From: Streptomyces albus subsp. albus
GTDB taxonomy: Bacteria > Actinomycetota > Actinomycetes > Streptomycetales > Streptomycetaceae
Assembly (NCBI RefSeq): GCF_000725885.1
Contig: NZ_JODR01000006.1
Location: 186,001-250,000 of the forward strand
DNA: 64,000 nucleotides
Direction: 5' to 3'
The notes beneath the pieces were generated by a model. It saw nothing but the letters and a program-made list of their open reading frames with translations, was not told where the DNA came from and did no database searches. A program made the position numbers and the translations under genes. This document shows, piece by piece, positions 45,013-52,753 of this stretch. The number at the start of each line of letters is the position of its first letter. Positions within the stretch are counted from its first letter, which is position 1.

Positions 45013-46035
45013 TCAGCCGGCCGCCAGGCCACCCGTCTCCAGGCTGGCCAGAGCGGACTCCCCCGCGTACCGCAGCCGCCCGTCCTGCCGCACCGTCACG
45101 TGCAGCCGGCCGGCCAGGTGCTGGACGGAGCTGCCGAAGCGGTGCCGCTCCAGACGCGGCACGGGAAGGTAGTACGCCCTGCCCCCGGGCGCGGTGCCGG
45201 TCAGCTCCACCCGGTGCCGGGCGGAGCGGCCGGCGAGGTGCCAGGTGCCGTCGCGCACGGTGGCCCGCACGAGGGCGGCGGGCGGAAAGAGGCCGATCGT
45301 CTCGTCGCCGGCGCGCACCACGAGGCCGTTGACCCGCAGGGTGAGCCCGCCGCGGCCGAGACTGCCGCCCGCGAAGGCCACGCACAGGTCCTCGCGGTCG
45401 AAGCCGTGGGCCTGGCCCCACCACCAGGCGGGCGGGAAGCCGCGGCCCCACGACTTCTCGGCGTAGACCTGGCTGCCGGACAGGTCCCACACCTCGTCCG
45501 CCAGTCGGGCGACGCCCTCCACGCGGGCGCCGAAGAGGTGCGGGTGCCAGTAGTGGTTGAGGCCGGGGACGGCGGAGAAGACGCTGGTGCCCGGCAGGAG
45601 GCGGCGCGGCGGCCAGGTGTGCTCGGGACGCAGGGCGCAGCGGATGTCCACGTCGTCACCGATGCGGACCCGCAGCCGCTTGCCGTCCAGTGCCAGGGCG
45701 GGCAGCGCGCTGATGCGGTAGGCGGCGGTGTCGTCCCAGGCGCCGTCCACGCTGGCGGAGCGGATCAGCCCCGAGGGGTGCGCGGCGACCACGACCGTGG
45801 CCCACGGTGGTCCGGGCGGGTGGTTGACGCCGCAGGCGACGAGGAGCACCCTGCCGCGCCCGGGGTCGGTGAACCGCCACAGGTAGCCCTCCATGGGGGC
45901 CCGGTGGGAAGGCAGCGGGTCACCGCCGGGCAGGTCGGCCCCGGTGCCGCGCCACAGGTCGCGCAGCCGCGTGGAGCGGGGGACGGCGGGTTCGCTGGCC
46001 CGTTCCGCGAGGCGGGCCCGGTGGCCGGCCCTCAT
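45013..46035 (-). CDS. Tocopherol-cyclase-family protein
   Basis: This 340-aa protein resembles the plant/cyanobacterial tocopherol cyclase (VTE1) family, which closes the chromanol ring of vitamin E precursors. Hallmarks are GYLWRFTDP near the N-terminus, GLNHYWHPHLFGARVEG, and YAEKSWGRGFPPAWWWGQAH, the counterpart of the conserved AEKNWG...FP..W block, followed by LCVAFAGGSL. Length is close to cyanobacterial cyclases. It is last in a four-gene operon with prenyl synthase, UbiA prenyltransferase and methyltransferase, and its start overlaps the prenyl-synthase stop (ATGA). Activity is inferred from family and context; the family also includes uncharacterised members. Confidence 0.78.
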   Translation of the reverse strand: MRAGHRARLAERASEPAVPRSTRLRDLWRGTGADLPGGDPLPSHRAPMEGYLWRFTDPGRGRVLLVACGVNHPPGPPWATVVVAAHPSGLIRSASVDGAWDDTAAYRISALPALALDGKRLRVRIGDDVDIRCALRPEHTWPPRRLLPGTSVFSAVPGLNHYWHPHLFGARVEGVARLADEVWDLSGSQVYAEKSWGRGFPPAWWWGQAHGFDREDLCVAFAGGSLGRGGLTLRVNGLVVRAGDETIGLFPPAALVRATVRDGTWHLAGRSARHRVELTGTAPGGRAYYLPVPRLERHRFGSSVQHLAGRLHVTVRQDGRLRYAGESALASLETGGLAAG

Positions 46036-47099
46036 TGTTCCCGTGCCGTCAGGTAGTGGGCCATGGCGTGCAGTTCGGTGCGGGTGTGCTCGGGCATCGG
46101 CAGTCCGGCGACGGCCGCCAGCGCGGCTTCCTGCTGACGGCGTGCCTCTGCTTCGGCCGCGGCCCGCCCGCCGGCCGCCTCGGTCAGTTCCAGCGCGGTG
46201 GGCAACTCCGCCTCGCCGAGCCGTCCCCGGTGGCGGTGCAGCAGTGCGGCGAGGCGGTCGCCGGCCGGGGTGCCGGAGGCGAGGGCGGCGATGACGGGCA
46301 GGGTCCTGCGGCCCTCGCTCAGGTCGGAGCCGACGGGTTTGCCCGTCGCGGACTGCCGTCCCCACAGGCCGATCACATCGTCGGCGCACTGGAAGGCGAC
46401 GCCGATGCGGCGCCCGAACAGTGCCAGGCGGGCCACCTGCCGCGGGCCGCCGCCGGCCAGCAGCGCGCCGAGGGCGGTGGCCCCGGCGAGGAGGGCGCCG
46501 GTCTTGGCGGCTGCCGCGCGGCGGTAGTCGGCGAGGGTCACCGCGCCGGGTCCGCTCCAGGGAGCACGGGTGAAGGCGTGGTCGGACGCCTGTCCGTGCA
46601 AGGTGGCGAGCATGGCGCGGGTCAGCAGGGTGACGGCCCAGGTGGAGCGGGGGGTGTGCGGGGCGGCCAGGGTGTCGGCGGCCAGGACGTAGAGGCCGTC
46701 GCCGGTGAGCAGGGCGGCGCCGGTGCCGTACTGCTGCCAGACCGTGGGACGGCCCCGGCGCGTGGTGTCGCCGTCCATGATGTCGTCGTGGACCAGGGCG
46801 AAGTTGTGGACCAGTTCGACGGCCACGGCACCCGGTACGGCGTGCCGGGGCGGTGCGCCGAGGGCTTCGGCGGCGAGGAAGGTGAGCGCGGGGCGTACGG
46901 CCTTGCCGGTGCGGGCCCGTTCGGCGGGGTCTCCCCCGGGGCCCCACCAGCCCAGGTGGTAGCCGCTCATGAGGGCGAGGTGGCGGGGCAGCCGGTCCAC
47001 GGCGGCGCGGAGGGCGGGTTCGATCCGGGCGTAGGCGCGTCGGCAGACCGATACGGCGATCTCGTGAGCCTTCGCCGCCGGGCCCGCCGCCCCGGTCAT
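46032..47099 (-). CDS. Isoprenyl diphosphate synthase (GGPP-synthase type)
   Basis: This 355-aa trans-prenyltransferase makes the linear prenyl diphosphate for the cluster. The first Asp-rich motif is NFALVHDDIMDGD; the second is VAFQCADDVIGLWG followed by TGKPVGSDLSEGRRTLP, the form seen in many Streptomyces GGPP synthases. Residues before the first Asp motif (AVAVELVHNF) fit C20 products, but chain length cannot be fixed by eye. Both ends overlap neighbours by 4 nt. Confidence 0.88.
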   Translation of the reverse strand: MTGAAGPAAKAHEIAVSVCRRAYARIEPALRAAVDRLPRHLALMSGYHLGWWGPGGDPAERARTGKAVRPALTFLAAEALGAPPRHAVPGAVAVELVHNFALVHDDIMDGDTTRRGRPTVWQQYGTGAALLTGDGLYVLAADTLAAPHTPRSTWAVTLLTRAMLATLHGQASDHAFTRAPWSGPGAVTLADYRRAAAAKTGALLAGATALGALLAGGGPRQVARLALFGRRIGVAFQCADDVIGLWGRQSATGKPVGSDLSEGRRTLPVIAALASGTPAGDRLAALLHRHRGRLGEAELPTALELTEAAGGRAAAEAEARRQQEAALAAVAGLPMPEHTRTELHAMAHYLTAREQ

Positions 47100-51482: not shown

Positions 51483-52753
51483 GCCCGGCGGCGGACGGCG
51501 CCCGGATCGTCGTCGTGGGCGCGGGGCCCGGCGGAGCCACGGCCGCCTGCCACCTGGCACGGCAGGGCCTTGAGGTGACCTTGGTGGAGAAGTCCGCCTT
51601 CCCCCGGGAGAAGGTCTGCGGCGACGGTCTGACCCCCCGCGCGGTACGGCACCTGGTCCGGATGGGCATCGACACCTCCGGCCCGGGCTGGATGCGCAAC
51701 CGCGGGCTGCGGTTCGTCTCCCGGGGGCAGACCCTCGAACTCGACTGGCCCGAGAGCGGCCGGTTCCCCGGCTACGGCCTCACCCGGAGGCGCGAGGACT
51801 TCGACGAGCTCCTCGCCCGGCACGCCGAAGCGGCCGGGGCCCGCCTGCTCACCAGGACGAAGGCCACCGGGCCGCTGCGGGACCGGGCCGGGCGGGTCAC
51901 CGGCGTCTCGGTGACCGGTCCCGACGGCACCCCGCGCGAGCTGGGCGCCGAGCTGGTGCTGGCCGCCGACGGGGTCGCCGGACGGCTGGCGGTGGCCGTC
52001 GGTATCGAACGGCTGAAGAAGCGGCCCGTCGGCACCGCCGTACGCCGCTACTACCGCAGCCCCGCCAAGCACCGCGACCCGTATCTGGAGACCTGGCTGG
52101 ACCTGCGCCGGGAGGACGGCCGCATCCTCCCCGGCTACAGCTGGATCTTCCCGCTGGGCGACGGGCGGGTCAACGTCGGACTCGGCGTCCTCAACGACTC
52201 CCGCACCGGGACGATGGAGACCCGCAGACTGCTCGACACCTGGCTGGCCCGCACCCCCGGCGAATGGGGCCTGGGCGAGGCGGACAACGCCGACGGGCCA
52301 CTGCGCGGCGCGGCCCTGCCCATGGGCTTCAACCGCGTCCCCCACTACCGGGACGGACTGCTGCTGATCGGGGACGCCGGCGGCATGGTCAACCCCTGCA
52401 ACGGCGAGGGCATCGCCTACGCCATGGAGTCGGCCGAGCTGGCGGCCGAAGTGGTGGCACAGGCGCTGGCCCGCCCCGCCGGACCCTCCCGCGAACGGGC
52501 CCTGGAACAGTACCCGGCACAGATGGCGCACCGGCTGGGCCGCTACTACCGGCTCGGCCGCGGCTTCTCCGCCCTGATGGCACGCCCGGCCTTCACCTCC
52601 CTCGTCACCCAGAACGCCGTCAGGTCCCCCGGCGCGATGCGCTTCATGGTGCGGCTGCTGTCGAACCTGACCGACACCCCGGCCTCGGACGCGCTGGACC
52701 ACGCCGTCAACACCCTCATCCGGGTGACTCCGGCGCCCCGGCCGGTGCCCTGA
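51479..52753 (+). CDS. Geranylgeranyl-reductase-family flavoprotein
   Basis: This 424-aa FAD-dependent enzyme has the N-terminal dinucleotide fold IVVVGAGPGGATAACHLARQG, the family block PREKVCGDGLTPRAVRHL and the C-terminal FAD motif LLIGDAGGMVNPCNGEGIAY. Relatives saturate isoprenoid chains of chlorophyll/tocopherol, archaeal lipids or menaquinone. Start overlaps the methyltransferase stop. In this cluster it would reduce the geranylgeranyl tail, giving a tocopherol- rather than tocotrienol-like product. Confidence 0.87.
   Translation: MSPAADGARIVVVGAGPGGATAACHLARQGLEVTLVEKSAFPREKVCGDGLTPRAVRHLVRMGIDTSGPGWMRNRGLRFVSRGQTLELDWPESGRFPGYGLTRRREDFDELLARHAEAAGARLLTRTKATGPLRDRAGRVTGVSVTGPDGTPRELGAELVLAADGVAGRLAVAVGIERLKKRPVGTAVRRYYRSPAKHRDPYLETWLDLRREDGRILPGYSWIFPLGDGRVNVGLGVLNDSRTGTMETRRLLDTWLARTPGEWGLGEADNADGPLRGAALPMGFNRVPHYRDGLLLIGDAGGMVNPCNGEGIAYAMESAELAAEVVAQALARPAGPSRERALEQYPAQMAHRLGRYYRLGRGFSALMARPAFTSLVTQNAVRSPGAMRFMVRLLSNLTDTPASDALDHAVNTLIRVTPAPRPVP

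Follow-up and report, generated by a model that had tools for sequence, protein, structure and literature searches.

A seven-gene block in Streptomyces albus as a candidate pathway to a tocopherol-like prenylated chromanol

Organization of the seven-gene block

We analysed a 64,000-nucleotide stretch (the window) of Streptomyces albus subsp. albus, namely positions 186001–250000 of contig C6 (NZ_JODR01000006.1) in a genome (G000) of 7.63 Mb and 104 contigs. Seven genes between window positions 45013 and 52753 form two divergent runs. The minus-strand run encodes a SibL-type aromatic C-methyltransferase (MT; 48259..49359), a UbiA-family membrane prenyltransferase (UbiA; 47096..48262), an isoprenyl diphosphate synthase (IPPS; 46032..47099) and a tocopherol-cyclase-family protein of 340 aa (TC; 45013..46035). 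The plus-strand run encodes a 4-hydroxyphenylpyruvate dioxygenase (HPPD; 49534..50712), a UbiE/MenG-family methyltransferase (UbiE; 50751..51482) and a geranylgeranyl-reductase-family, MenJ-like flavoprotein (GGR; 51479..52753). Four of the five within-run junctions are 4-base overlaps (TC/IPPS, IPPS/UbiA, UbiA/MT and UbiE/GGR), and HPPD and UbiE are spaced by 38 bases, which bears out the two divergent, tightly coupled operons described in an earlier note on this DNA. With moderate confidence, we read the block as a dedicated pathway by which this non-photosynthetic Streptomyces would turn homogentisate, derived from tyrosine, into a tocopherol-like lipid, namely a C-methylated chromanol with a C20 prenyl chain.

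Recurrence in other genomes

Genomes of GTDB species were scanned with a 32-row cyclase alignment; 306 relatives were retrieved and the best 80 were kept. A same-order block lies beside TC in 10 of these best 80 (L025–L034), nine from Streptomyces and one from Wenjunlia. GGR, HPPD, MT and UbiA follow the window order in all ten loci, while the presence of TC in all of them is not evidence, since the scan started from TC. The gene flanks differ between groups of clustered loci. Because the same order recurs in 10 of the best 80 loci, the block is not a chance grouping.

For the other 70 cyclases (L035–L104), no partner genes were found in the available sequence (tblastn, E <= 1e-8), with some contigs ending near the gene. 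These stand-alone cyclases come from Rhodococcus, Mycobacterium, Corynebacterium, Microbacterium/Microbacteriaceae, Solirubrobacterales and others. Their neighbours revealed no pathway; the ten recurring proteins are SDR, glycosyltransferases, ROK, DUF2252, lipase and others. A stand-alone cyclase may use another prenyl quinol, for example menaquinol, in menaquinone-containing actinobacteria.

Of 394 genomes sampled from the class, 36 exceeded the PF14249 cut-off and three had a UbiA relative at 1e-35. All three belong to the same genus as the window, whose own genome is among them. Among 295 sampled genomes of the genus, the window's own was the only one to pass the PF14249 cut-off. Weak matches in G016, G020, G168 and G290 fell below it, and tblastn at 1e-4 retrieved no TC or partner gene there.

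The cyclase-family protein

The match of TC to PF14249, proposed as a check in the earlier note, is significant (57 bits, cut-off 26.6, E 2.2e-15), and PF14249 is the sole Pfam family matched at E 0.001. The motif block on which the cyclase call had hinged is present as YAEKSWGRGFPPAWWWGQAH; YAEKSWG spans residues 191–197 and WWWGQAH residues 204–210. In an alignment of 32 cyclase rows, Y191, E193, W196 and W205 never vary, and W204 and W206 seldom do. TC is predicted to close the ring of a prenyl hydroquinone.

The AlphaFold model of TC has a mean pLDDT of 92.2 and a pTM of 0.90. Its top solved match by Z was CghA (24.9, rmsd 3.4, 288 residues aligned), followed by Phm7 and Fsa2, with AttH (22.2) and kievitone hydratase (20.4) ranking below these three. 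The predicted model shares the two-barrel fold of the AttH/kievitone hydratase group. TC also has an acid followed by tryptophans (E193, then W204–W206), a pattern that recalls carotenoid 1,2-hydratase (CrtC), reported to require the acid D268 together with W110, W283 and W285 (PMC12402844). TC differs from CrtC, kievitone hydratase and AttH in matching only PF14249 in Pfam, and it is 8–13% identical to its structural matches (first 14 rows of the structural alignments). A sequence search of solved structures returned two matches only (E 0.023 and 0.08), neither credible. No solved tocopherol cyclase was among the matches listed by the structural search, which is no proof that none exists.

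The fold is also common to natural-product pericyclases. The prenyl hydroquinone could be cyclised to some other ring system, yielding a specialised meroterpenoid with a possible antibiotic or signalling role. We consider this improbable: Pfam and NCBIfam scans revealed no P450 or transporter gene among the seven block genes, and a chain-saturating reductase would be expected to destroy the double bonds required for polyene cyclisation.

The C-methyltransferase

The best solved relative of MT is SibL (PDB 4qvg, E 1e-113), described as a 3-hydroxykynurenine C-methyltransferase in which Tyr134 acts as base, aided by Asp132, and Val248–Ile249 occupy the site of His–Asp in the O-methyltransferase ASMT (PMC4426599). 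SibL residues D132, Y134, V248, I249, D292, Y295 and H335 are all kept in 12 of 12 MT sequences, these being the window, the ten clustered loci and L106, which may duplicate another genome. The catalytic Y155 and D153 and the V269–I270 pair of MT, which correspond to SibL Tyr134, Asp132 and Val248–Ile249, are likewise found in all 12; the ASMT-type catalytic His–Asp is missing, with V269–I270 in its place. The earlier note had taken this protein for an O-methyltransferase that might give an O-methylated product. Its active site is instead that of the C-methyltransferase SibL, which leaves the O-methylated product unsupported.

MT differs from SibL in its linkage to HPPD and UbiA and in having Phe for Tyr99 (12/12), which in SibL makes contact with the amino group on the hydroxykynurenine ring. 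The anchors of the amino-acid tail, Asp292 and His335, are retained in every sequence. We infer a tyrosine-like substrate, with hydroxyphenylpyruvate, homogentisate or a prenyl quinol as alternatives. Tyrosine or 4-hydroxyphenylpyruvate would be likeliest, because Asp292 and His335 are kept and Tyr99 is replaced by Phe, tyrosine having no ring amino group. Among the 120 listed of 415 MT relatives, 15 have L-tyrosine C(3)-methyltransferase as their source name, and the rest include proteins named UbiE, plain methyltransferase or, in a few cases, O-methyltransferase (P0146, P0207 and P0223). By description, MT can also be likened to SfmM2, for which C3 methylation of tyrosine, possible dimethylation and a need for the amino-acid function are reported (PMC13109631).

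This correction strengthens the vitamin E reading, since a phenol C-methylase and a UbiE-type enzyme together can supply tocopherol-type ring methyls. The MT residues and UbiE provide the ring C-methyltransferases expected of a tocochromanol pathway; the positions methylated are predicted.

HPPD, UbiE, GGR, IPPS and UbiA

HPPD scored 394 bits against TIGR01263 (cut-off 277). Its nearest solved chain is the S. avermitilis HPPD (PDB 1t47, E 9.7e-132), and the Fe ligands H, H and E are present in 11 of 11 cluster rows. These features point to the homogentisate-forming HPPD of a tocochromanol pathway. Hydroxymandelate synthase was ruled out by the TIGR01263 score above cut-off and by the nearest structure. 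Cluster copies differ from catabolic ones by N191C, F242L, I244L and F348I/V (S. avermitilis numbering); plant HPPDs, too, carry Leu and Ile at two of the four sites.

UbiE exceeds the cut-off of the demethylmenaquinone methyltransferase model NF001241 (337.8 bits, cut-off 327). GGR was assigned through TIGR02032, the geranylgeranyl reductase family (242.1 bits, cut-off 158.8), which makes it the predicted chain-saturating reductase. It scored 246 bits on the MenJ model, under the cut-off of 700, and also passed general FAD Pfam cut-offs, including that of Trp_halogenase (46.8 vs 21); the family call follows TIGR02032.

IPPS matched PF00348 at 184 bits and lay under every NCBIfam cut-off, the best models being encapsulin-cargo polyprenyl transferase (358 bits, cut-off 450) and the geranylgeranyl diphosphate (GGPP) synthase IdsB (288 bits, cut-off 475). 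A Phe at position -5 before DDxxD was found in nine of nine rows, including that of L109, a locus without TC. Under the chain-length rule for this residue, the product is probably C20 (GGPP). UbiA matched PF01040 at 88 bits, its motifs NxxxDxxxD and DxxGD occur in 14 of 14 rows, and a sequence search with it retrieved no solved structures. The database protein nearest to it is 98% identical and bears the name Streptomyces albus. The predicted acceptor of UbiA is homogentisate or methyl-homogentisate.

Genome setting

The genome encodes a second HPPD on contig C17, 59% identical to the cluster copy. MenG and a MenJ-like reductase lie near MqnC on C16, and the cluster UbiE and GGR are, respectively, 55% and 54% identical to these. 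With a second HPPD and a second UbiE/MenG in the genome, the cluster proteins are extra copies. Since separate core paralogues are present, the block, which uses diverged versions of them, is probably dispensable for menaquinone and for the breakdown of tyrosine. Seven UbiA-family genes exceed the Pfam cut-off (L017–L023, the cluster copy being L020), one of them on C16, so other prenylated aromatics are possible.

The absence of a homogentisate dioxygenase, from which the earlier note had concluded that homogentisate is reserved for biosynthesis, does not hold genome-wide. HmgA is encoded on C25 (37134–38405; 702 bits, cut-off 510.75), and the conclusion is rejected with it.

Proposed pathway

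From the genes, families and motifs observed, their recurrence and the host background, we infer the following substrates, products, order of steps, chain length and ring closure. MT would methylate the phenol ortho to the hydroxyl, most likely on tyrosine or 4-hydroxyphenylpyruvate, and the cluster HPPD would convert the (methylated) hydroxyphenylpyruvate into (methyl)homogentisate. IPPS would supply GGPP, which the MenA-like UbiA would use to prenylate homogentisate, releasing CO2. The UbiE-type enzyme would then put on the next ring methyl, the MenJ-like reductase would saturate the chain partly or wholly, and TC, after protonating the first double bond of the prenyl chain, would close the chroman ring. 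By our reasoning, tyrosine C3 and C5 map to homogentisate C6 and C4, the positions at which tocopherols bear their two additional ring methyls. Methylation ahead of HPPD would accordingly yield rings of the gamma or beta type; after the UbiE step the ring would be of the alpha type. So far as we are aware, methylation at the tyrosine level would be without precedent in vitamin E chemistry.

A tocopherol-like prenylated chromanol, as put forward in the earlier note, is still the best reading given the recurrence, the fold, the separate core paralogues and the second C-methylating enzyme, although its O-methylated product and its dioxygenase argument have fallen away. A more specific version, which we offer tentatively and regard as rather doubtful, is a vitamin E evolved within Streptomyces. 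A widespread actinobacterial cyclase lineage would have joined paralogues of MenG, MenJ and HPPD and a tyrosine-type C-methyltransferase to make alpha-tocopherol-like chromanols, with tyrosine methylated ahead of HPPD, an order of steps different from that of plants and cyanobacteria.

Contrary evidence and alternative readings

Several observations weigh against the chromanol pathway, beginning with the cyclase itself. TC covers only positions 127–335 of the 335 in PF14249, the C-terminal 62%, and its Foldseek matches are moderate (TM 0.43–0.64 by query, top 25). The equivalence of TC E193 and CrtC D268 is proposed from sequence pattern only. The motif YxEKNWG, described for photosynthetic cyclases and proposed to be catalytic (PMC4963081), reads YAEKSWG in TC, and we therefore do not file TC as a canonical tocopherol cyclase. 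In all 18 cluster rows the N is replaced, by S in 16 and by A in two, and it is kept by 70 of 70 stand-alone rows. A branch supported at 100/99 separates the two groups in an 88-row tree, where the 18 'cluster' rows are one side of the branch, not shown as a clade. Of these labels, 11 belong to the window and L025–L034, six are indirect, through a UbiA or MT match (P0006, P0007, P0014, P0019, P0113 and P0118), and that of P0016 is assumed. In a wider set of 119, the residue is N in 89, S in 23 and A in two, with the motif missing in five. An S is no proof of a cluster, because several S-bearing proteins (P0041, P0048, P0082, P0083, P0108, P0115 and P0013) may lie outside one.

The replaced N favours a different product, an open-chain, plastoquinone-like prenylated benzoquinone serving as redox carrier, with TC hydrating the prenyl chain or acting elsewhere and no chroman formed. 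The fold matches of TC include kievitone hydratase, reported to add water to a prenyl double bond (PMC5805349), UbiE and GGR share 55% and 54% identity with the paralogues of the menaquinone locus, and methyl-plastoquinones are reported from the non-phototrophic Nitrospira (PMC12324825). We nevertheless judge such a carrier unlikely, given that PF14249 is the sole Pfam family of TC.

The prenyltransferase adds to the difficulties of the chromanol pathway. On the homogentisate phytyltransferase (HPT) model NF009525, UbiA scored 19.3 bits against a cut-off of 226, which places it outside the HPT family. Its top NCBIfam model is MenA-type (53 bits), and all models were under cut-off. The earlier note would have given up its reading had UbiA grouped strictly with MenA in a host with no other copy; UbiA is indeed nearer the MenA models, yet further UbiA genes are present in the host. 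Such a MenA-like UbiA might use a different acceptor, the block being a divergent menaquinone or prenyl-lipid pathway. The UbiE score on the demethylmenaquinone model would suit this, as would a UbiA relative encoded by a plasmid of S. clavuligerus (50% identity over 75%), where no HPPD appears among 19 listed features of an incomplete gene table. Yet the genome encodes the futalosine-pathway enzyme MqnC and has no MenD, for supply of 1,4-dihydroxy-2-naphthoate, over cut-off (best 54.5 vs 244.2 bits). Moreover, HPPD occurs in 10 of 10 clustered loci and also beside the UbiA relative in L109, so that we hold this alternative to be very unlikely.

L109 (7192–11441; Streptomyces, G512) is itself awkward for the chromanol pathway, as UbiA relative, IPPS and HPPD stand together there without TC. 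Its HPPD shares 76% identity with the catabolic copy in the window genome, and no MT, UbiE, GGR or TC was found there at 1e-4. It is possibly a simpler homogentisate prenyl-lipid locus.

To the same side of the balance belong the following. UbiE, present in the window and eight of the ten clustered loci, is missing from L032 and L034; IPPS is missing from L027, L032, L033 and L034; and neither L032 nor L034 showed GDAGG, one of the GGR patterns. Tyr288 of SibL, which contacts the amino-acyl part of the tail, is Val in 12 of 12 MT sequences. The pocket changes in HPPD do not establish specificity for a methylated substrate. The block contains no tyrosine aminotransferase, and no product of the block is known.

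Comparison with known systems

In plants and cyanobacteria, the tocopherol pathway consists of HPPD, HPT, MPBQ methyltransferase, tocopherol cyclase, gamma-TMT and GGR. The block resembles it in the set of reaction types and in having a cyclase of the PF14249 family that carries the blocks YxEK-WG and FP..WWWGQ. Unlike that pathway, it is a single gene block in a heterotroph, has a MenA-like UbiA with MenG- and MenJ-like partners, uses a SibL-type C-methyltransferase and carries S or A for the N of the cyclase motif.

According to a 2017 review, only photosynthetic organisms make tocochromanols (PMC5745509). Cyclase-like proteins had been recorded in 2016 from bacteria that are not photosynthetic, with no known function (PMC4963081). 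The cluster cyclases resemble these in belonging to heterotrophs, whereas the stand-alone cyclases (70 fetched) have no partner in the available sequence, keep the motif N and lie across the 100/99 branch. The methyl-plastoquinones described in Nitrospira offer a methylated prenyl benzoquinone in a non-phototroph, but they are quinones rather than chromanols, have suggested roles in electron transport and belong to another phylum (PMC12324825). Tocopherol biosynthesis has also been claimed for the non-photosynthetic Leishmania, which is a protozoan (PMC6443866). Among the matches listed in a search of the open-access literature (titles and abstract starts), there was no report of this cluster or of tocopherol synthesis in actinomycetes.

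If the chromanol pathway is true, a recurrent heterotroph gene cluster would challenge the photosynthetic-only rule for tocochromanols. The block would also offer model enzymes with simple genetics for a cyclase lacking any credible solved relative in sequence searches, and would point to a function for the tocopherol-cyclase-like proteins of heterotrophs, a question left open in 2016 (PMC4963081).

Promoter region and flanking genes

The divergent promoter region contains an inverted repeat (49469..49502), CTCACTATA-N16-TATAGTGAG, with perfect 9-base arms. It is a candidate operator. The arms TCACTATA/TATAGTGA also occur in L025, L027 and L028 and, imperfectly, in L026. A variant, TCACT-N6-AGTGA, was recognized by eye in L029–L031 and L033, and no repeat was seen in L032 and L034. 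No cluster-linked regulator for the repeat was found; a role for the adjacent LacI-type regulator is unsupported, its family being present in only L025 of the ten clustered loci.

The gene for cytochrome aa3 oxidase subunit I (CtaD) lies directly after the block, at 52972–54705. A CtaD homologue with 85% identity is located on the opposite side of the block in L029, and L030 has a partial match about 10 kb away. An adjoining oxidase gene would suit a plastoquinone-like redox carrier, but CtaD falls within the fetched stretch of only these two of the ten clustered loci and is not beside the block in L025, so its membership of the block is unsupported. Genes for archease and the RNA ligase RtcB adjoin at 55759–57706.

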